DNA from: Chloroflexota bacterium
GTDB taxonomy: Bacteria; Chloroflexota; Anaerolineae; Fen-1058
Direction of reading: 5' to 3'
Length of the DNA: 7,709 nt
NCBI GenBank assembly: GCA_016219235.1
Contig: JACRBO010000869.1
Span: forward strand, 1 to 7,709
Translations under genes and position numbers: made by a program
Shown here: positions 1 to 7,709 of the stretch, piece after piece
How positions within the stretch are numbered: position 1 is the stretch's first letter
Layout of the letters: the number at the start of each line of letters is the position of its first letter
Notes under the pieces: model-generated
Database searches by the model: none
What the model saw: only the letters and a program-made list of their open reading frames with translations
Told to the model about the DNA's origin: nothing

Positions 1-13
1 CAAGTATTGATCG

Positions 14-40
14 TTTACAAGACCTTATTCGGGGTATAAT
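14..40 (+). promoter_or_regulatory. Sigma70-type promoter for the J-domain gene
   Basis: A perfect TATAAT lies at 35-40. TTTACA at 14-19 is a 5/6 match to TTGACA, but the spacer is only 15 bp, shorter than the usual 17. Transcription would start near 46-48, giving a leader of about 40 nt before ATG 86. No CIRCE (TTAGCACTC-N9-GAGTGCTAA) or HspR-type inverted repeat is visible, so heat-shock control by those systems is not supported here. The -10 is convincing and the -35 is tentative. Confidence 0.55.
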
Positions 41-85
41 ATTTTTAGAGGCTCACCTTTCAACATGAGCTGGATGTGAGTGTCA

Positions 86-1024
86 ATGGACTATAAAGAC
101 TACTATCAAACCCTCGGCGTCCCGCGCACAGCCACGCAGGACGAGATTAAAAAGGCCTACCGTAAACTGGCCCGCCAGTTTCACCCTGACAACAATCCCG
201 GCGATAAAAAATCAGAAACCAAGTTCAAGGAATTGAACGAGGCGAATGAAGTGCTCAGCGATCCCGCGAAGCGCAAGAAATACGATACGCTGGGTTCGCA
301 GTGGCAGCAATACGAGCGCATGGGCGGCCGGCCGGGCGGCTTCGATTGGAATCAGTGGACGACCGGGGGTGAAACCGTCGATATGGGCGATCTCTTTGGC
401 GGCAGCGGCGGCTTCTCCGATTTCTTTACGCGCATCTTTGGCGGAGTGGGTGAGGGCCAACCCGGAGCGGGGCCGGCGCATAGCGCGCGCCGATCGGCCT
501 CCCGCGCCCCGACGCGCGGCCGTGACATCGATCAGCCGGTCGAGATCAGCCTGCGCGATGCCTACACCGGCGCAACTCTCACAGTGCAAAAAGACGGCCA
601 AAAGCTGGAAGTCAAAATCCCGGCCGGCGTTAAAACCGGTTCGCGCATTCGTGTGGCCGGTCAGGGCAACCCCAGCCGATCGGGTGCGGCGGCGGGCGAT
701 TTGTACCTCGTGGTCAATATCGCGGCTGATCCCAAATTCGAGCGGGATGGCGATAACCTGAAGACCGATGTGACGACTGATCTGTACACGGCCCTCCTCG
801 GCGGCGAAGTGACTGTGCCCACACTGACGGGTGATGTGAAGTTGAAGATTCCGCCCGAGACGCAGCCGGGACGGGTGTTCCGCCTGCGCGGTCAGGGCAT
901 GCCTAACTTGCGCGAACCCCAAAATCATGGAGACTTACTGGTGAGGGTACAGGTTTCTTTACCGACCAATTTGACGGGTATTGAAAAGAACCTGTTTGAG
1001 CAGTTGGCGCAGTATCGGAAGTAG
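86..1024 (+). CDS. Class B DnaJ/CbpA-type J-domain co-chaperone
   Basis: This is a co-chaperone expected to stimulate Hsp70 (DnaK) ATPase activity and deliver unfolded clients in the cytoplasm. With the start at ATG 86 it has 312 residues. The J domain spans about residues 3-68, with the helix II-III HPD motif at 33-35. A Gly/Phe-rich linker follows (about 79-135, including FGGSGGF and IFGGVG). Two C-terminal beta-barrel domains begin at about 144 ([13 protein letters not shown]) and contain the typical [12 protein letters not shown] and LRGQGMP segments. No CxxCxGxG repeats are present, so the DnaJ zinc finger is absent, as in CbpA. A GTG at 80 would add two residues. I prefer ATG 86 because homologues typically begin M-(D/E)-YKDYY. 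The ribosome binding site is weak for either start. The gene has its own promoter and is followed by an HtrA-type protease, consistent with a protein quality-control role. The family call is firm; the exact start is less so. Confidence 0.93.
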
Positions 1025-1026
1025 GG

Positions 1027-1135
1027 GATTGGTGATTGGTAACTGGTCAATCGGTTAGCTGGTTGACTCGCAATCCAGTCACCGATTACCGGTTGACCAA
1101 TCACCGGTTGACCAATTGACTTATTGACCGCTAAC
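1027..1135. repeat. Inverted array of 7/8-bp GGT-ending units between dnaJ-like and htrA genes
   Basis: The array starts two bases after the dnaJ-like stop codon. On the + strand it reads GATTGGT, GATTGGT, AACTGGT, CAATCGGT, TAGCTGGT (1027-1063). From 1081 to 1135 the same kind of unit appears on the opposite strand: + strand ACCGATT, ACCGGTTG, ACCAATC, ACCGGTTG, ACCAATTG, ACTTATTG, ACCGCTAAC. The two halves face each other, so the transcript could fold into an imperfect hairpin around GACT (1065-1068) and AGTC (1077-1080). It fills nearly all of the 131-bp gap. There is no T-run, so it is not a standard intrinsic terminator. Repeats of TTGAC (for example 1108 and 1116) resemble -35 boxes, but no good -10 follows. 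Confidence 0.8.
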
Positions 1136-1155
1136 TTATTTCAAGGGATAGAACG

Positions 1156-2340
1156 ATGAAGTCGATCAAGTCTGTAACGATGGCCCTTATTGCCGTTCTG
1201 TTAGTAGCCGGTTGCCGCGAATTCAGCGTGTTTGAAACGCCCACGCCCCGACCGATAGTTGTCGGCAAGATCGAGCCGACGTCAGCCGTGCCGCCCACGC
1301 CGCTGCCTGCCTCGGTCGAAATCTCTGCCGACGCGGTTGAACTGCTGCTCCAAAACGTCTACGAGCGCACCAATCCCGGTGTGGTCAACATCGATGTGTC
1401 GGGCGGCACGGGCAGCGATCTGACCGAGTTCGGTTCCGGCTCCGGCTTCGTGATCGATCTGGATGGGCACATCGTCACCAACAATCACGTCGTCGAAGGC
1501 GCAGACGAGATCGACGTGACCTTTGCCGATGGCAGTGTGGCGGTGGCTAAGTTAATCGGCACCGATCCTTACAGCGATCTGGCCGTGATCAAGGTTGACG
1601 TGGATGCCGCTAAGTTACAGCCCCTGCCCATCGCCGATTCGGATCTGGTGAAGGTCGGGCAGCGCGTGATCGCCATCGGCAACCCGTTTGGTCTGGTGGG
1701 TACGATGACGGTGGGTATCGTCAGTGGCAAAGGCCGCACGCTGCCCGCCGATGGGCCAACCAGCGCGTCCGGTAATTTTAGCAATCCCGACATCATCCAG
1801 ACCGATGCGGCCATCAACCCCGGTAACTCCGGCGGGCCGCTGCTGAATTCCAAGGGCGAAGTCATTGGCGTCAACGCCGCCATCCGTACCGACGGCACCA
1901 ATCGCGCCAACTCCGGCGTCGGCTTTGCTATTCCGTCCAACACCGTCAGGCGCGTGGCGCAGCAGATTCTCAAGGATGGGCGCGCCTCGTATCCCTATCT
2001 GGGTGTCAGCGTCGACAATCACTTCACTATCGGTGAATTGGCCGTCGCGCTAAAACTGCCGGTGGTTAAGGGCGTGTTGGTGTCATCCGTCGTCAGTGGC
2101 GGCCCGGCGGATAGAGCCGGCGTGCGCGGCGGCGACCAGCAGCTTACGGTACGGGGCATTCCGGTTGTGGCGGGCGGCGACATTATCACCGCTATCGACG
2201 GCGATCCGATTGTCAGTTTCGATCAGATGATCGCGTATTTATCCAGTCAAAAACTGGTCGGGCAGGAGGTGACACTCACGATTTTGCGCGACGGCCAAAC
2301 TCTTCAACTGCCGTTGACGCTGGCCGATCGTCCCCGGTAA
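1156..2340 (+). CDS. htrA: HtrA/DegP-like serine protease, lipoprotein, one PDZ domain
   Basis: This is a trypsin-like (S1C) protease expected to degrade or handle misfolded proteins on the outer face of the membrane. The protein has 394 residues. A lipoprotein signal peptide ends in the lipobox LVAGC with Cys20, so it is predicted to be lipid-anchored rather than free. A Pro/Thr-rich linker (about 28-52) leads to the protease domain (about 60-275). The catalytic triad is visible: His111 in TNNHVV, Asp141 in YSDLAVI and Ser225 in NPGNSGGPL. One PDZ domain occupies about 278-392. Between its GPADRAG and GGDIITAIDG motifs it carries an extra segment (about 325-340), which I believe is common in Chloroflexota HtrAs. 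AAGGGA at 1143-1148 lies 7 nt before the ATG. No clear promoter was found, so it may be read from the upstream gene through the repeat array. Function is firm; substrates are unknown. Confidence 0.95.
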   Translation: MKSIKSVTMALIAVLLVAGCREFSVFETPTPRPIVVGKIEPTSAVPPTPLPASVEISADAVELLLQNVYERTNPGVVNIDVSGGTGSDLTEFGSGSGFVIDLDGHIVTNNHVVEGADEIDVTFADGSVAVAKLIGTDPYSDLAVIKVDVDAAKLQPLPIADSDLVKVGQRVIAIGNPFGLVGTMTVGIVSGKGRTLPADGPTSASGNFSNPDIIQTDAAINPGNSGGPLLNSKGEVIGVNAAIRTDGTNRANSGVGFAIPSNTVRRVAQQILKDGRASYPYLGVSVDNHFTIGELAVALKLPVVKGVLVSSVVSGGPADRAGVRGGDQQLTVRGIPVVAGGDIITAIDGDPIVSFDQMIAYLSSQKLVGQEVTLTILRDGQTLQLPLTLADRPR

Positions 2341-2346
2341 TTCACG

Positions 2347-2363
2347 AGCGCGGCAATCGCGCT
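2347..2363 (+). other. Short hairpin after the HtrA gene
   Basis: AGCGCG (2347-2352) and CGCGCT (2358-2363) form a 6-bp stem with a 5-nt loop just after the HtrA stop codon. No T-run follows, so it is a poor intrinsic terminator. It may be an RNA-stabilising or attenuating hairpin within an htrA to release-factor-like transcript. AGGAGG at 2383-2388, an excellent Shine-Dalgarno 6 nt before ATG 2395, follows it. Confidence 0.35.
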
Positions 2364-2394
2364 GTGCTCGATTATCATCCTCAGGAGGCGTGTC

Positions 2395-3501
2395 ATGTTT
2401 AGCAAAGATGATTTGCAGCAGCTCGCCGAGTATCAGGGTCAACATGGCGTACTCAGCCTGACCCTCAATGTTGATCCCACCAGACGCACCCGCGATGAAT
2501 ACCGCCTGACCCTGCGCCACTTGCTGCGCAGCGTTGGCGGCCGCGCCAACGGCGACGCCGCCCGCATCGAAGCGTTCTTCGATCACGAATATGACTGGAG
2601 CGGGCGCGGGCTGGCGATCTTTTCGAATCAGCACGAGGACTTCTGGAAAGTGTATTCACTCGCCGTCCCGATCGGCGATTCGATCTTCGTCGGGCCCAAA
2701 CCGCACATCACGCCGCTGGCGAATCTGTGGGACGCCTACGGGCGCTTTGTCGCCGCGATCGTCGATCGGCAGGGGGCGCGCTTTATCTTTGTCCAGCTGG
2801 GCGAAATCGTCGATGGCGAAGGCGTATTGGGCGAAGAAGTGCGCAAGACCAAATCGGGCGTGGGCGCCACCCCGACCGGCCGCCGGCGCAATTCCGACGC
2901 CCCGACCGATCGGCAGGAGAATGCGAAGATCAAACGCAACGTCAAAGATGCCGCGGCAGCGCTGGCCGCGTTTTGCGAAAAACACTCGCCGCGGTACGTG
3001 GTGCCGGGCGGCAATGCCGAGGTACTGAGCGAATTGCGGGGCTATCTGCCGCAACCCTGGGCCGAGCGCGTCATCGGCACCTTCGCAGCCGACATCGACG
3101 AAGCCGATCTGGCCGTGCGCGATCGTGCGCTGAAGGTCATCGACGAGTACGAAGCCAAACGAGAAGCCGAACTGGCCGATGCCGCCATAACGGCAGCGGC
3201 CAAGAACAGCCATGGCGCGGCCCGGTTAGGCGATGTACTGCGCGCGGCGCACGCCGGACAGGTGCAGACGTTGCTGATTGCGGAAGGTTTCCAGTCGCCG
3301 GGGTATCGCTGCGGCCAGTGCGGCTACCTGAGCGCGCAGTCGATGGCGCGCTGCCCGTACTGCAATGGCACGTTCGATCAAATCCCCGATGCGGTGGAGG
3401 CGGTGATCAGCAAAGTGGTCGAACAGGGCGGCCGGGTGGTGATGGTGCGCGGCCACATGGGGTTGACGGAGGCCGGTATCGCGGCGTTGCTGAGATATTG
3501 A
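2395..3501 (+). CDS. Bacterial eRF1-like (baeRF/VLRF1-type) protein with C-terminal zinc ribbon
   Basis: The 368-residue protein resembles bacterial homologues of archaeo-eukaryotic release factor 1. By analogy these act at the ribosome in termination, rescue or quality control. The N-terminal region is about 1-115. A central RNase H-like domain runs from about 116 to 260, with the strand FVAAIVDRQGARFIFVQ and the segment ENAKIKRNVKDAAAAL, which aligns in style with the eRF1 region after GGQ. A C-terminal L7Ae-like domain (about 272-368) is interrupted by a zinc ribbon with Cys306, Cys309, Cys320 and Cys323 (CGQCG and CPYC), as in eRF1 domain 3. Where eRF1 carries GGQ, this protein has SGVGATPTGRRR (about 154-165) with no Gln. 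Canonical peptidyl-tRNA hydrolysis is therefore doubtful. AGGAGG at 2383-2388 fixes the start. A strong terminator follows at 3544. It sits after chaperone and protease genes. I am fairly sure of the superfamily and unsure of the activity. Confidence 0.75.
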   Translation: MFSKDDLQQLAEYQGQHGVLSLTLNVDPTRRTRDEYRLTLRHLLRSVGGRANGDAARIEAFFDHEYDWSGRGLAIFSNQHEDFWKVYSLAVPIGDSIFVGPKPHITPLANLWDAYGRFVAAIVDRQGARFIFVQLGEIVDGEGVLGEEVRKTKSGVGATPTGRRRNSDAPTDRQENAKIKRNVKDAAAALAAFCEKHSPRYVVPGGNAEVLSELRGYLPQPWAERVIGTFAADIDEADLAVRDRALKVIDEYEAKREAELADAAITAAAKNSHGAARLGDVLRAAHAGQVQTLLIAEGFQSPGYRCGQCGYLSAQSMARCPYCNGTFDQIPDAVEAVISKVVEQGGRVVMVRGHMGLTEAGIAALLRY

Positions 3502-3543
3502 GATTGGAAGTTGGAAATTAGAGGTTGGACATTGGAAGTTGGA
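3502..3543 (+). repeat. Six perfect-length heptamers, consensus NNTTGGA
   Basis: Directly after the TGA stop (3499-3501) come GATTGGA, AGTTGGA, AATTAGA, GGTTGGA, CATTGGA and AGTTGGA without slippage. The base after the last unit (3544) is the first base of the terminator stem. The array therefore exactly fills the space between stop codon and terminator. Degenerate copies in the opposite orientation lie at 3662-3689. Confidence 0.85.
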
Positions 3544-3574
3544 GAGGGGTCGCCGTTGCGGCCCCTCCTTTTTT
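3544..3574 (+). terminator. Strong Rho-independent terminator
   Basis: GAGGGGTCGC (3544-3553) pairs with GCGGCCCCTC (3558-3567), giving a 10-bp stem with one G-T wobble and a CGTT loop. C and six T residues follow (3569-3574). It ends the transcript of the release-factor-like gene and separates it from the next unit. Confidence 0.88.
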
Positions 3575-3661
3575 CCCACTGGCAATCGCTAACGGGTGCA
3601 CGCAAAAGGCGTCAGCAGAGGCGGCTCCCACGCCGCCGGGCCGCGGACACACTCGCTAATC
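3575..3661. other. Non-coding spacer with one GC-rich hairpin
   Basis: No gene is supported here; the open frame crossing it has no coding signature. GGCGGC (3620-3625) and GCCGCC (3632-3637) can form a 6-bp stem with a 6-nt loop. No T-run follows it. The spacer is bounded by oppositely oriented heptamer arrays, so it could be part of a repeat-derived element, but I cannot show that from one copy. Confidence 0.4.
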
Positions 3662-3689
3662 GCCATCCTCTAACTTCCAATTTCCAGTA
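3662..3689 (-). repeat. Four heptamers of the NNTTGGA type, inverted
   Basis: On the + strand the units are GCCATCC, TCTAACT, TCCAATT and TCCAGTA. On the - strand they read TACTGGA, AATTGGA, AGTTAGA and GGATGGC, the same family as the array at 3502-3543. The last unit supplies the first two bases of the TATAAT box at 3688-3693, so the repeat overlaps the promoter of the next gene. Confidence 0.7.
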
Positions 3690-3693
3690 TAAT
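3688..3693 (+). promoter_or_regulatory. -10 box of a probable leaderless promoter
   Basis: A perfect TATAAT ends at 3693, followed by seven bases (CGCGCGC) and then ATG at 3701. Transcription usually begins about 7 nt after the -10, so the mRNA would start at or next to the A of the ATG. No Shine-Dalgarno sequence precedes this ATG, consistent with leaderless translation. No convincing -35 is present. The corresponding region is heptamer repeat. Confidence 0.65.
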
Positions 3694-3700
3694 CGCGCGC

Positions 3701-4132
3701 ATGAAGATTTACTTCTCCGGTTCGATCAGCGGCGGGCGCGAACACGCGGCGATCTATCAACAGCTGGTGGCGTATTTGCAAGCGTTGGGCCACGATGTTC
3801 TATCGGCGCACGTGGCCGACCCCGACGTGGTGGAGCGCGAGAAGGACGCCTCGCCCCATATCGTCTTCGAGCGTGATGTAGCTTGGGTGCATCAATGCGA
3901 CGTGATGATCGCAGAAGTGAGCACACCCTCGCTGGGCGTGGGCTATGAGTACGGTCTGGCCGTGCAGTTGGGCAAACCGGTGTTGTGTGTGTATCGATCG
4001 GGCCTGCGCCTGAGCAAGATGATCACCGGCAATCCCGCGCCGAATTTGAAAGTCGCCGCCTATTCCACTGAAGTAGAACTCGAACGCATCACGCAGACTT
4101 TTCTGGAATCATTGACCACCGCGCAAGCCTAA
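3701..4132 (+). CDS. DNPH1/Rcl-like 2'-deoxynucleoside 5'-phosphate N-hydrolase
   Basis: The 143-residue protein belongs to the nucleoside 2-deoxyribosyltransferase fold. It most resembles DNPH1 (Rcl), which cleaves the glycosidic bond of deoxynucleoside 5'-monophosphates to free base and deoxyribose 5-phosphate. Matching segments include YFSGSISGGRE (4-14), IFERDVAWV-type (about 54-63), AEVSTPSLGVGYE (71-83) and LSKMI (104-108). By comparison with mammalian DNPH1, Glu83 in GYE is the likely nucleophile, Asp59 a helper, Tyr4 an active-site residue, and Ser105 likely contacts the 5'-phosphate. That serine context favours a nucleotide rather than nucleoside substrate. Likely roles are nucleotide salvage or removal of abnormal deoxynucleotides from the pool; this is inference. 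It appears to be translated from a leaderless mRNA and is followed after 18 nt by the SDH-like gene with its own ribosome binding site. Family is firm and substrate is inferred. Confidence 0.85.
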   Translation: MKIYFSGSISGGREHAAIYQQLVAYLQALGHDVLSAHVADPDVVEREKDASPHIVFERDVAWVHQCDVMIAEVSTPSLGVGYEYGLAVQLGKPVLCVYRSGLRLSKMITGNPAPNLKVAAYSTEVELERITQTFLESLTTAQA

Positions 4133-4150
4133 ACGTCTTGAAGGAGACTA

Positions 4151-5161
4151 ATGGATCAACCCGTTGAAGCCCCCAAAATCAAGCAGCCTCCCGTGCTGTT
4201 CGATCAAACGCAAATCTTGATCGAGCAGGTCGCCGCGTTGCTGGGCGGCCCGATCGTCACGTACTGGAACAGCCCGCAAGGCTCGGTCTGCCATAACGAC
4301 GTGGTGGCGTTGTATGAACTGCTGGAGAAGATCGGCAAGCAAGATCTCATGTATCTGTACATCAAGTCCAGCGGCGGCGACGGGCGCGCTTCGTTGCGGT
4401 TGGTCAACCTGCTGCGCCAATACTGCAATCGCCTGATCGCGCTGGTGCCGTTGGAATGCGCGTCGGCGGCCACGATGATTACGCTGGGCGCGGACGAGAT
4501 CATGATGGGGCCGATGGCGTATCTGACGCCCGTCGATACCTCGTTGACGCACGACCTGTCGCCGCTCGATCGCGATAATGCGCGCGTCAGTGTCAGCCTC
4601 AACGAACTCACGCGCGTGATCGGACTGTGGCGCGCCGAACAGGCTGAATCCAAAGAGAACCCGTACAAGGCGCTGTTCCAATACGTGCATCCACTGGTGA
4701 TCGGCGCAGTCGATCGGGCCGAGTCGCTGTCGATCATGCTGTGCAAGAGTCTGCTGGCCTATCACATCGACGACGAAACCAAAGCCGATCAAATCTCGCG
4801 GACGCTCAACAGCAAATATCCGTCGCACAGCTACCCCATCCTGTTTGAAGAGGCGCAATCGATCGGGCTGAAGGTGACGCACATGCCCGCCGAGATCAAC
4901 ACGCTGCTGCTGGAACTCAACGAGCGGTATAGCGAAATGGGCCAGCGCTCCACCACCGACTTCGACGACACGCACGCGCACAGCAACGAAATTCTCAACA
5001 TCTGGGAAGCGGCCAACCATCAAGTCTATTATCAACAGGACAAAGACTGGTTCTATCGTACGGAAGAGCGCCGCTGGATTACGCTGAACGACAACAGCAG
5101 CTGGCGTCACATGGAACACGTCGACGGCGAGACAACCACGACGCTGTTGCACATTGCTTAA
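4151..5161 (+). CDS. SDH/ClpP-crotonase-fold serine protease-like protein (SppA relative)
   Basis: The 336-residue protein fits the serine dehydrogenase proteinase (SDH_sah) group of ClpP/SppA-fold proteins. The core lies at about 35-250. YIKSSGGDG (70-78) resembles the oxyanion glycine loop. ECASAATMITLGADEI (102-117) carries the probable nucleophile Ser105 and the helix typical of this fold. MGPMAYLTPVD (119-129) corresponds to the usual GP-x-LGPID segment, and SHSYPI (225-230) to the conserved SH-x-x-PI motif. There is no signal peptide or membrane segment, so it is predicted to be cytosolic, unlike SppA. The C-terminal 80 residues are rich in Trp, Tyr and His and look like an added small domain. 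AAGGAG at 4141-4146 precedes the ATG by 4 nt. It is in an apparent operon with the DNPH1-like gene. Proteolytic activity and substrate are unproven. Confidence 0.72.
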   Translation: MDQPVEAPKIKQPPVLFDQTQILIEQVAALLGGPIVTYWNSPQGSVCHNDVVALYELLEKIGKQDLMYLYIKSSGGDGRASLRLVNLLRQYCNRLIALVPLECASAATMITLGADEIMMGPMAYLTPVDTSLTHDLSPLDRDNARVSVSLNELTRVIGLWRAEQAESKENPYKALFQYVHPLVIGAVDRAESLSIMLCKSLLAYHIDDETKADQISRTLNSKYPSHSYPILFEEAQSIGLKVTHMPAEINTLLLELNERYSEMGQRSTTDFDDTHAHSNEILNIWEAANHQVYYQQDKDWFYRTEERRWITLNDNSSWRHMEHVDGETTTTLLHIA

Positions 5162-5192
5162 GACTGTTTCTTAACCGGTTTGTACTCTGCAT

Positions 5193-5300
5193 CGGCGATT
5201 GAAATCGCAGCAACAACTACGCAAAGTCGGCCGCCGCCGACTGGATTCCAGCCGACGAAGGTCGGCTTCGTGCAACTGTTGGCGCGAATTTCATTCGCCA
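5193..5300. repeat. ~108-bp nested palindromic intergenic element
   Basis: The element is a large imperfect palindrome centred on CTGGATTCCAG (5241-5251). The left arm (5194-5244) and the reverse complement of the right arm (5248-5299) match at roughly 37 of 52 aligned positions with one gap. Each arm holds two smaller hairpins: GCGATT/AATCGC (5195-5208), AGTCGGC/GCCGACT (5225-5242), AGCCGAC/GTCGGCT (5250-5267) and TGGCGcGAAT/ATTCGCCA (5280-5300, one bulged base). It resembles interspersed palindromic elements I recall from Chloroflexota and cyanobacteria. It carries no gene. It could fold in RNA and separate the SDH-like and PLP-enzyme messages. It accounts for most of the 183-bp gap; the rest shows nothing else. 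Confidence 0.75.
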
Positions 5301-5333
5301 GCCGCTTTACGAAACACTTTCCAATGAAAGACC

Positions 5334-5340
5334 GAGGAGA
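5334..5340 (+). promoter_or_regulatory. Ribosome binding site that decides the PLP-enzyme start
   Basis: GAGGAGA is a strong Shine-Dalgarno match. AGGAG (5335-5339) is 5 nt from ATG 5345 but only 2 nt from ATG 5342. I therefore take 5345 as the start. Starts further upstream would translate the palindromic element. Confidence 0.7.
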
Positions 5341-5344
5341 CATG

Positions 5345-6544
5345 ATGACCGCTCACGATCGATTCTTTACGCAAGCCGTTCACGCCGGGAGCGATCAACC
5401 GGCGGCCGGCGGTCGCCCGATCGCGCCGTCGATCGATCCGGCGGTGACGTACACCTATGACGACATGGACGATCTATCGGGCGCGCTGCATGACGGGGTG
5501 GGCTATTCGTATATGCGCTATGGCAGCCCGACGGTCGCTGCGCTGGAAAGCGCCGTGGCCGAACTCGAAGGCGCGGAGGAAGCAGTCGCGTATGCCACGG
5601 GTATGGCCGCGTTGCACGCTGCTTTCGTGCAGGCCAACATCTCGACAGAATGCCCGTTGATCGCGGCGCAGAATGTGTATGGCGCGACCTTCTCGCTGCT
5701 GCACAAGATGTTCGTGCCGGGCGAATCGGTCCACTTTGTCGAGATCACCGATCGAGACGCGGTACAGGCCGCGATTGATCGTTTTCACCCGCGCGCGATC
5801 TTCCTCGAATCGATCTCGAATCCGCTGTTGAAGATTCCTGATCCGCCGTCGATCGCAAACGCGGCGCGCGCCGTGGGCGCGAGTGTGATCGTCGATGCGA
5901 CGTTTGCCACGCCCTACGTGATGCAGCCCATCGCGCATGGCGCGGATGTGGTGGTGCACTCGGCGACGAAATATCTGGGCGGCCACGGCGATGTGATGGG
6001 CGGTGTGATCGCGACCGACACCGCACGCGCGAGTGAACTGCGCACTCAACTGCGTCTGTACGGCGGCAACCTCGGCCCGTTTGAGGCGTGGCTGGTGCTG
6101 CGCGGCGTGCGGACGCTGGCACTGCGCATGCGCGAGCAATGTGCGAATGCAGCGCGAGCGGCGCAGTGGTTGAGCGAGCAACCCTCGATTGCGAGAGTGA
6201 TCTATCCCGGCTTGCCCGATCATCCCGATCACGCGACGGCGAAGCAACTGTTTCGTGCAGATTGTTTTGGCGGCATCGTGACGTTTGAATTGCGTGAGGC
6301 TGATGAAGCGAAGGTCTTTCGCTTCATGGAATCGCTCAAACTGATCAAATGTGCGACCAGCTTAGGCGATGTGTACTCGCTGCTGCTGTATCCGGCGCAG
6401 TCCAGCCATCATGGGCTGGGCCGCGAGGAACGCTTGCGGCAAGGCATCGGTGATGGGCTGGTGCGCCTGTCGTGCGGCATCGAAAGCGCGGAGGATATTG
6501 TGGCGGATTTGCAGCAGGCGCTGAATGTGGCGAGTGACGAGTAA
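5345..6544 (+). CDS. Cys/Met-metabolism PLP-dependent enzyme (cystathionine gamma-synthase/lyase family)
   Basis: This is a fold-type I PLP enzyme of 399 residues, the usual length for the family, acting in the cytosol on cysteine, homocysteine or activated homoserine. PLP-binding Lys209 lies in HSATKYLGGHGD. Tyr56 and Arg58 in YSYMRYGSPT match the neighbour-subunit phosphate-binding motif. ATGMAALHA (84-92) is the cofactor phosphate loop, Tyr112 stacks on PLP, Asp184 contacts the pyridine nitrogen, and Arg374 in VRLSCGIE binds the substrate carboxylate. After Tyr112 it reads YGATF rather than the YGCTF of classical methionine gamma-lyase, which argues mildly against that activity. Cystathionine gamma-synthase, gamma-lyase and O-acylhomoserine sulfhydrylase cannot be told apart here. 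The last residues and the stop codon fall inside a heptamer array, and the next gene starts four bases after the stop. The frame stays open upstream to TTG 5180, but that extension is the palindromic repeat. Confidence 0.92.
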   Translation: MTAHDRFFTQAVHAGSDQPAAGGRPIAPSIDPAVTYTYDDMDDLSGALHDGVGYSYMRYGSPTVAALESAVAELEGAEEAVAYATGMAALHAAFVQANISTECPLIAAQNVYGATFSLLHKMFVPGESVHFVEITDRDAVQAAIDRFHPRAIFLESISNPLLKIPDPPSIANAARAVGASVIVDATFATPYVMQPIAHGADVVVHSATKYLGGHGDVMGGVIATDTARASELRTQLRLYGGNLGPFEAWLVLRGVRTLALRMREQCANAARAAQWLSEQPSIARVIYPGLPDHPDHATAKQLFRADCFGGIVTFELREADEAKVFRFMESLKLIKCATSLGDVYSLLLYPAQSSHHGLGREERLRQGIGDGLVRLSCGIESAEDIVADLQQALNVASDE

Positions 6545-6580
6545 CGAGTGAACACGCACCACGCAGCACGCACCACGCAA
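6532..6580 (+). repeat. Seven uninterrupted heptamers spanning a stop codon and a start codon
   Basis: The units are GAGTGAC, GAGTAAC, GAGTGAA, CACGCAC, CACGCAG, CACGCAC and CACGCAA, with no slippage over 49 bp. The PLP-enzyme stop TAA (6542-6544) lies in the second unit. The candidate GTG start of the glycosyltransferase (6548-6550) lies in the third. The array therefore encodes the C-terminus of one protein and the first ten residues or so of the next. Confidence 0.85.
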
Positions 6581-7709
6581 TGGCTGATCATTGTCACACT
6601 CGTGATTGCTGCCTTCCTGCGCCTCTGGCAGATCGGTGCGCTGCCGCCCGGCCTGCACTATGACGAGGCCGCCGATACGATCATCGCGGAACAGATCGCG
6701 CGTGGCGAGAGCGCGCCGATCTTCATCGAGGCTTATACCGGCAAAGAAGTCCTGTTCTTTTATTGGGCCGCTGCGTGGATGAAGTTGATCGGTCCGTCGG
6801 TGTTTGCGATGCGGCTGGCGGCGGCGCTGCTGGGCGTGCTGACCGTCGCGGCGACGTACCGGGTGGTTGCGGAGATTCTTGCATCTCGCATCGTGCAGCC
6901 TGCACGCCAGATGCACGATGCAGGAAGCAAGACTGTTGCACTGCTCGCCGCGATTTTCATTGCGACCTCGTTCTGGCACATCCTCATGAGCCGCCTGGGC
7001 TTTCGCTCGATCAGCGAGCCGTTGATTCAGGCGTTGGCGCTGGCGGCCTTGTTTCGCGGCTTGCGGCTGAATCGCTATCGGTGGTTCGTCGCCGCGGGCG
7101 TGCTCGTCGGCTTGAACCTCTACACGTATCTTGCGGCCCGATTGTTTCCGATCGGCATTGCGCTGATCTTCTTGTACTTCATCCTCTTTGATCGCGGGCA
7201 TCGGCTTGATCGATTGACGCAGTTCATGATCATGGTGGCCTCAGCGGTGATTGTATTCTTGCCATTGGGCGTGTACTTTGTGCAGCACCCCGACGCTTTC
7301 CTGACGCGCATTCAACAGGTTGCGCCACGCGGCGATCAACTGACGCCGTTATTCGAGAACGCACTGAAGGCGTTGGGCATGTTCTTTGTTGAGGGCGATC
7401 CGTATATCCGTTTCAACTTGCCGGGGCGACCGCTCTTTCCGGTGGTGTTGGGTGCGTTGTTTGTGCCAGGTGTCGTCGTTGCGCTGATCGGGATGTTTCG
7501 CGGGCGCACGGTGCAGCGGCGCGGCGCATACTTTAGTTTGATCGTATTAACACTGATCATGCTGCTGCCGACGACGCTGGCGGTGAACGAGATCACGCCG
7601 AGCAATCTGCGCGCCATCGGTTTGATGCCGGTCGTGTTTGTGTTCCCGGCGTTGGGTGCGTGGTGGTTGGTGAAGAAGATCAGGACGCTGATTCACGCTG
7701 ATTACGCTG
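6548..7709 (+). CDS. GT-C (GT39/GT83-like) membrane glycosyltransferase, 3' end outside the window
   Basis: The frame has no stop from GTG 6548 to the window edge: 387 codons, incomplete. The product is a polytopic membrane protein of the ArnT/PMT type, which uses polyprenyl-phosphate sugars on the outer face of the membrane. TM1 is about 12-27. The first outer loop follows, with PPGLHYDEA (33-41), where Asp39-Glu40 match the GT-C catalytic acidic motif. GKEVLFFYW (65-73) is typical too. TM2 is about 84-108 and TM3 begins near 129 (VALLAAIFIATSFWHI), with further helices to the end. Residues 111-128, between TM2 and TM3, are encoded by an inverted repeat and look like an insertion. The first residues (NTHHAARTTQ) come from a heptamer array, so GTG 6602, next to TM1, is an alternative start. 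No Shine-Dalgarno precedes 6548. The stop of the PLP enzyme is in the same frame, two codons upstream. The acceptor is unknown. Confidence 0.85.
   Translation, partial: MNTHHAARTTQWLIIVTLVIAAFLRLWQIGALPPGLHYDEAADTIIAEQIARGESAPIFIEAYTGKEVLFFYWAAAWMKLIGPSVFAMRLAAALLGVLTVAATYRVVAEILASRIVQPARQMHDAGSKTVALLAAIFIATSFWHILMSRLGFRSISEPLIQALALAALFRGLRLNRYRWFVAAGVLVGLNLYTYLAARLFPIGIALIFLYFILFDRGHRLDRLTQFMIMVASAVIVFLPLGVYFVQHPDAFLTRIQQVAPRGDQLTPLFENALKALGMFFVEGDPYIRFNLPGRPLFPVVLGALFVPGVVVALIGMFRGRTVQRRGAYFSLIVLTLIMLLPTTLAVNEITPSNLRAIGLMPVVFVFPALGAWWLVKKIRTLIHADYA
6878..6931. repeat. Inverted heptamer repeat inside the glycosyltransferase gene
   Basis: The left arm 6878-6897 and the reverse complement of 6912-6931 agree at 17 of 20 bases, with a 14-base loop. 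The left side also reads as heptamers TTGCATC, TCGCATC, GTGCAGC, CTGCACG (6879-6906). The right side reads as the complements CAGATGC, ACGATGC, AGGAAGC (6908-6928). The whole element is 54 bp and falls exactly on codons 111-128, in frame, in the loop between TM2 and TM3. Confidence 0.8.
7685..7709 (+). repeat. Short direct repeat of ACGCTGATT at the window edge
   Basis: ACGCTGATTC, ACGCTGATT and ACGCTG follow in tandem, cut by the window end. The array is still in the open glycosyltransferase frame (residues near IRTLIHADYA). It may mark another repeat at or near the 3' end of that gene. Confidence 0.5.

Follow-up and report, generated by a model that had tools for sequence, protein, structure and literature searches.

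Tandem arrays with a pitch of 7 or 8 bases form a genome-wide class in two Thermoflexales (Chloroflexota) genomes. Many of them pair up as inverted arms of one short word, and whichever strand is read, the arm richer in G comes first. The arrays were noticed at four loci in a 7,709-nucleotide stretch of a Chloroflexota genome (GenBank GCA_016219235.1, contig JACRBO010000869.1, positions 1 to 7,709; here the window). Related species share the sites of these arrays but often not the word, which at several sites is different in both arms jointly. We propose, with a probability of about 35%, that the arrays are read unit by unit by a putative factor while slippage changes their copy number. Reports of heptamer repeats in many bacteria go back to about 1990, with no agreed cause to our knowledge.

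Among 67 loci retrieved with the protease gene of the window, its closest relatives lie in two Thermoflexales metagenome-assembled genomes (MAGs), Go_SlAct_bin_560 (genome G001, locus L001; 83 to 89% nucleotide identity to the window) and BIN20 (genome G002, loci L060 and L048; 83 to 95%). Both MAGs are fragmentary and were sampled to about 10% (G001) and 3% (G002). Gene calls were home-made, with masks from the longest open reading frames and a codon-score caller for the gap-class count, and comparisons are throughout between species, not strains of one species.

Abundance and architecture of the arrays

A first sample, unselected for arrays, comprised 30 contigs of G001 and 20 of G002 chosen by consecutive or even contig number (262 kb); it contained 31 period-7 arrays against 0.4 expected and 14 period-8 arrays against 1.6. 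The multiples 14 and 21 were raised, as was period 15 (11 arrays), and periods 5, 10, 11, and 13 stood at 0 to 2. A second sample of 40 more contigs (274 kb) gave 21 period-7 arrays against 0.4 expected and 5 period-8 arrays against 1.0; multiples of 3 were raised there too (period 6, 8 arrays; 9, 6; 12, 7; 15, 10; 18, 11), nearly all of them coding. Over both samples (536 kb), the counts are 52 against about 0.8 for period 7 and 19 against about 2.6 for period 8. Arrays cover 3.1% of intergenic bases versus 0.21% of coding bases, and 40 of the 71 lie mostly between genes. The pooled lag autocorrelation of intergenic DNA has weak peaks only, at 7, 14, and 21 (z = 1.8, 3.0, and 3.3). Genome-wide enrichment, denser between genes, had been anticipated for period 7 in the initial annotation and is found for period 8 as well; neither outcome named there as fatal to the idea, a signal at the level of shuffled sequence or confinement to the window loci, occurred.

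Three further observations concern abundance. A long unbroken CACGCAT array stands at a contig start (G002:C871:4-114), where the assembly perhaps broke on account of a long array. The 67 protease-gene loci hold 20 period-11 arrays, 18 of them intergenic, against 2.3 expected. Hairpins of the CACAGAGACACGGAG / AACACGAAGGACACAAAGG type at L265:5886-5933 and L219:11813-11895 are perhaps another short-pitch word family.

Where two arrays lie within 80 bases of each other, 28 of 37 pairs are inverted, none is direct, and 9 fall under the threshold; 16 of the 28 come from ten contigs picked off a hit list, in part because hits on opposite strands were neighbors there, 9 from unpicked contigs, and 3 from the window together with L060 and L048. 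The other loci gave three inverted pairs and one direct, and further sampled genomes five inverted and two direct, one of each being shared with the former set. Seven of nine stretches fold with z scores of -4.1 to -7.1. Inversion and folding both speak for an explanation in which a stem-loop is selected, whether in RNA or as cruciform DNA, for transcript stability or operon insulation, and the word itself is immaterial; the hairpins of cyanobacterial short tandemly repeated repetitive (STRR) sequences have been discussed in such terms (PMC2670836). This explanation, which we consider rather unlikely, is opposed by the many arrays without a detected second arm (140 arms, 37 neighboring pairs) and by window locus 3, which showed no hairpin fold (z = +0.64).

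The finer match between arms also runs against it. Variable columns are not paired across arms (52% Watson-Crick versus 56% after column permutation; 46 elements, 215 pairs), and whole-arm matching is 0.825 in real elements versus 0.824 with units shuffled (33 elements). The arms share the word and nothing finer. Snap-back or arm-to-arm template copying was rejected because unit variants are not mirrored across arms; even perfect dyads such as L092:1787 (24/24), considered as a sign of copying, match no better than with shuffled units. Intrinsic terminators were likewise rejected, since arrays are not concentrated in convergent gaps (1 of 19, against 20 of 146 tandem and 6 of 17 divergent gaps; small numbers from the home-made gene caller). 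At two sites, window locus 2 and L093:7787, the arms flank a terminator-like hairpin.

The G-richer arm is the 5' arm by 10:2 (3 ties) and 6:0 on unpicked contigs and by 8:1 in other Chloroflexota, 24:3 in sum; array-free intergenic hairpins gave 75:91 (29 ties; Fisher P = 1.6e-5 versus 24:3). Since the element is a dyad with the same polarity on either strand, the direction of transcription or replication cannot cause this polarity. A deamination gradient was dropped on inspection, as words like TGACGAG/CTCGTCA differ by transversions.

Units, words, and conserved sites

Within a unit, some columns form a fixed core and others are free. The word TGCGTGN, with 125 units in 40 arrays, has 0.16 bits in its last column, where adjacent units disagree 55% of the time; its remaining columns have 1.09 to 1.88 bits and change 2 to 27% of the time. 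These arrays were assigned with the last column left free, which biases them toward this result. TTGGAAG (6 arrays), assigned with no column left free, likewise has 0.16 bits at column 6. In a word-free test, changes concentrated in one column number 120 versus 88.6 ± 3.6 (40 arrays), 87 versus 65.8 ± 3.1 on the picked contigs (32 arrays), and 114 versus 81.5 ± 3.6 in other Chloroflexota (37 arrays); none of 2,000 null draws matches any of these three values.

The dictionary of words is small. The 52 period-7 arrays of the unpicked contigs fall into 14 clusters, against 33 for random words, and the degenerate heptad YGMGTRN, drawn up by eye and partly from the data it covers, accounts for 24 of 55 arrays against 1.0 expected. 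The locus 3 word of the window, CACGCAN, recurs in both genomes: three tandem copies with at most two mismatches occur 323 times in G001 and 304 times in G002, compared with 130 and 126 for the reversed pattern. Its wider distribution is patchy: among 80 genomes related to G001, 32 contain it. The initial annotation had supposed that a process making or keeping the period would suffice, with the word immaterial; such a process predicts neither a small dictionary nor a conserved core with free columns, so that this part of its proposal is unsupported.

These properties bear on three other explanations. A mutational origin would make the arrays STRR-like heptamer repeats that slippage during replication creates and turns over, with the arms coupled by hairpin-associated mutation and with neither reader nor function. 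It draws support from the stepwise duplicated neighbors at L266:2351, from the presence of arrays in all three gap classes, and from the report that heptamers are the most abundant class of long simple sequence repeats in many genomes, with an associated polymerase-footprint idea (PMC4679880, accessible text). Slippage copies whole units, however, and all columns should then vary alike, as in a simple sequence repeat made in this way, which the heterogeneous columns here do not; arm-to-arm copying should mirror unit variants, which are unmirrored; and polarity and the small dictionary are left unexplained.

The arrays might instead stem from a telomerase-like (DRT10-type) reverse transcriptase whose products were added on both sides of DNA breaks and captured. 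Bacterial reverse transcriptases that produce short tandem repeats exist (PMC12632851, in the part available), the G-inward polarity resembles a head-to-head telomere fusion, and the free column and small dictionary would also fit. We nevertheless hold this origin to be very improbable: the 6.5 Mb of the array-rich G002 yielded no RVT_1 match and G001 two, although divergent UG-type enzymes may escape the RVT_1 model. Copies of a discrete mobile hairpin, of the repetitive extragenic palindrome (REP/RAYT) or miniature inverted-repeat transposable element type, would account for many dispersed hairpins with shared words. Yet among 41 G001 elements, from about one-tenth of the genome, no two are 90% identical over at least 45 bp, and Y1_Tnp has no match in G001 and two in G002 (both incomplete MAGs). 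This is the least probable of the explanations considered.

Sites were compared between species at 25 arrays with usable G002 anchors, taken from six G001 contigs, L001, and the window; 12 more sites without anchors were dropped. An array is present in G002 at 22 of the 25, against 4.8% of random G002 intervals centered on intergenic DNA. Among the 22, L089:1156 spans 621 bases and may be a chance match, two rows are a single site viewed from two species, and the G002 array at L093:9899 was recognized by eye only. Under a fairer scoring, in which the cross-species comparison is also free to choose its split, 7 of the 25 sites (8 initially) have a different word in both arms, with self scores of 10 to 23 and cross scores of 7 to 14. 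L089:12016 is marginal: in G002 it scores 10 versus 9, and 5 of 40 shuffles are equally good. In our own reading of the words, the difference stays within one degenerate family at L089:12016, L089:13196, and L123:5118 and goes beyond one at L088:15749, L088:16288, and L093:9899. Window locus 1 keeps its joint two-arm switch (self 21 and 23, cross 14 and 13). The persistence of the period under a changing unit thus extends to the same site in different species.

Arms that differ jointly, at these seven sites and window locus 1, and that match each other better than the arms of the other species count in favor of stem-loop selection; L090:12275, which fails the fairer scoring with cross scores (17 and 17) above self scores (13 and 13), and the sharing of words between loci, which stem-loop selection leaves unexplained, count against it. 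Array length also differs between species at orthologous sites (e.g., L090:7485 and L090:8190), as slippage would have it. At another site, L149:3875-5100 compared with L090:10515-10550, G002 has about 1.2 kb extra immediately next to a heptamer hairpin.

The four loci of the window

Lag-7 scoring of the window (match +1, mismatch -1.5; segments scoring at least 7 counted; 300 Markov-3 shuffles as control) gave seven period-7 segments against a shuffle mean of 1.08. Six lie at the four loci where the initial annotation had placed period-7 repeats whose unit changes from locus to locus, both of which hold in the window; the seventh, at 5399-5415 (score 7.5), lies elsewhere. The shuffle maximum has a 95% point of 10.0 and a 99% point of 11.5, and only the score of 15.0 at locus 3 beats all 300 shuffles. 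The segments are therefore real as a set, most of them modest and several weak singly. Their architecture had been overlooked: inverted pairs make up loci 1 and 4, locus 2 consists of two arms around a terminator-like hairpin, and locus 4 lies within a reading frame. The features are as follows, with a strand assigned to the terminator-like hairpin only.

1027-1066, locus 1, 5' arm: G/T-rich GATTGGT-type units, pitch 7 to 8, directly after the dnaJ-like stop codon (1022-1024)
1072-1135, locus 1, 3' arm: reverse-complement word (ACCAATC / TTGACCAA), pitch 7 to 8, with a period-15 segment at 1081-1116
3502-3543, locus 2, 5' arm: NNTTGGA units with period-7 and period-14 segments, beginning at the baeRF stop codon (3499-3501)
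3544-3574, forward strand: intrinsic-terminator-like hairpin and T run between the locus 2 arms, read directly in the sequence and aligned in L060 and L001
3662-3689, locus 2, 3' arm: TTCCAAT word, reverse complement of the 5' arm word, from the alignment with L060 and L001
6527-6549, locus 3, first word: GAGTRAC units, score 11.0, spanning the stop codon (6542-6544) of the pyridoxal phosphate (PLP) enzyme gene
6553-6579, locus 3, second word: CACGCAC units in the 5' end of the PMT-like reading frame, score 15.0
6877-6904, locus 4, 5' arm: NNGCATC units within the PMT-like reading frame, score 8.5
6910-6932, locus 4, 3' arm: TGCACGA/TGCAGGA, score 8.5

Locus 1 (lag-7 segment 1024-1047, score 9.5) is a mix of pitches 7 and 8 and is best described as period 15 (1081-1116, score 16.0; shuffle maximum, 17.0); its RNA fold (1020-1142) has a z score of -6.4. 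L060 has at this site a hairpin of a different word, ATTAGTAN, with pitch 8. Locus 2 (3504-3543, score 10.5) is stronger at period 14 (15.0; shuffle maximum, 13.0), and a stricter fixed-window scan (22 matches in 28 bases) flagged it alone, at that period. L060 carries the locus 2 array as well. The fold of locus 4 has a z score of -4.1. Tandem Repeats Finder reported period 7 for loci 2 and 3, listed locus 1 only as 15 × 1.9, and had no row for locus 4. A search of Rfam gave four matches up to an E value of 1, every one under its gathering score; one of them (mir-341) covers locus 1.

Part of the spacer between the locus 2 arms (3590-3655) is missing from L060 and L001. It holds a GAGGCGGCTCCCACGCCGCCGGG-like sequence found too at L115:1778-1837 and L140:1275-1336 and, judged by sequence, seems to be a second dispersed hairpin family inside the array site. 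At the site of the first locus 3 word, L048 has GTGCGTA units. At the codon site of locus 4 (6877-6932), three species have three different inserts of 74, 65, and 86 bases between common anchors, all in one frame; in L001 and L048, in-frame inserts of the CCCTCACCC...CCCTCTCCC type replace the heptamer hairpin of the window, and the site seems to accept unrelated hairpins. The intergenic stretch 5205-5285 resembles by eye the hairpin at L098:562-633 (GCAACAACTACACGAAGCCGACC...), another dispersed hairpin family.

The window contains seven genes, all on the same strand:

DnaJ-like protein
trypsin/PDZ (HtrA-like) protein
baeRF family 10 protein
nucleoside 2-deoxyribosyltransferase
SDH-type ClpP-like protease
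Cys/Met-metabolism PLP enzyme
PMT-like membrane glycosyltransferase

The SDH-type protease has close relatives (66 to 69% identity) in Piscinibacter, Ideonella, and Variovorax records (L026, L039, L047, L050, L052, and L061), which suggests gene transfer or misbinning.

A proposed unit-reading factor and known heptamer systems

Pure slippage, selection for stem pairing, terminators, REP/RAYT elements, and reverse transcriptase products each fail at least one test. In the reading that we propose, a trans-acting, sequence-specific factor, acting on DNA or RNA, would recognize each unit separately and tolerate related words. By analogy with the ribbon-helix-helix proteins omega and MetJ, it might assemble on contiguous 7- or 8-base sites. 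MetJ boxes are 8 bp. Reading by the unit would keep the core, free a linker column, fix the pitch, and favor the inward arrangement, and slippage or unequal exchange would alter copy number and help variant words to spread. We count in favor of such a factor the free column, the excess of one-column changes, the polarity, and the small dictionary, together with CACGCAN at many loci, the sharing of only the word between arms, and the retention of sites between species. The precedent of omega counts as well: on plasmid pSM19035 it binds contiguous nonpalindromic 7-bp units, direct or inverted, with one dimer per unit (PMC9499535, available part). The omega operator/parS arrays differ in having one word, six sites, and a known protein, whereas the arrays here have no identified reader.

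Several observations weigh against this reading. Nearly half of the arrays (31 of 71) lie mostly within called reading frames, L266:2351 looks stepwise duplicated, hundreds of sites with many words are odd for a single regulator, and words switch at conserved sites. Units are not quasi-palindromic in Thermoflexales (1.88 versus 1.91); at the other loci they are slightly so (1.92 versus 1.77; 15 of 300 shuffles). No reader was found in a search with RHH_1, which gave one match each in G001 and G002 and did not extend to the families of MetJ, Arc, and Omega. Slippage alone, with nothing to read the units, has about the same probability as the unit-reading factor, because slippage is known to occur and because of the duplication at L266:2351.

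Among known kinds of repeat, the STRR hairpin of cyanobacteria comes nearest, and the arrays here, judged by their sequences, are probably a variant of it. The STRR heptamers of filamentous cyanobacteria are 7-base tandem units between genes that form hairpins and have no known function (PMC2670836), and the tie to them drawn in the initial annotation stands. The arrays here share the many-copy 7-base units and the capacity to form hairpins; they differ in their host, which is of another phylum and not a heterocystous cyanobacterium, and in that pitch 8 is also common. The accessible STRR literature contained no description of the polarity, the free columns, or the switching of words found in this analysis. 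On plasmid A of Trichormus variabilis (250 of 366 kb), seven period-7 arrays were found against 1.0 expected, with one inverted pair by eye, too few for polarity.

In the P6b stem of the Nostoc trnL intron, the heptad words TDNGATT and NNTGAGT build the same stem and one has replaced the other repeatedly (PMC4476775, accessible text), a word swap like those described here, at one intron position rather than at many sites with many words. The TAACTGA repeats of Beggiatoaceae, Cyanobacteria, and Bacteroidetes are also intergenic heptamers in many copies, of one word and almost exclusively direct (PMC4679880). Dispersed heptamers are likewise known as GGGNATC/GGGGA(C/T)T in Xanthomonas, where some are inverted, and Nostoc (PMC4692102) and as (GATAGRA)n in Chloroflexus aurantiacus (PMC6749651); as far as the available text goes, these have been studied as G-quadruplex or satellite sequences of a single word. 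The last was the only report found for Chloroflexi, in a search that left subscription papers mostly outside, and earlier reports may exist.

A bolder form of the unit-reading proposal, which we regard as unlikely, is that hundreds of inward-facing arrays of 7/8-bp units across the chromosome are read by a polymerizing sequence-specific protein, with sites persisting while word and reader specificity drift together. If this were true, the STRR sequences of cyanobacteria and heptamer repeats elsewhere would represent, in other phyla, chromosomal binding arrays of this type. The core with free columns, the G-inward polarity, the dyad at the level of the word only, and the conserved site with a switching word are rules that separate slippage, stem selection, and binding arrays from one another; they can be checked in any closed genome and make a long-unexplained class of repeats testable.

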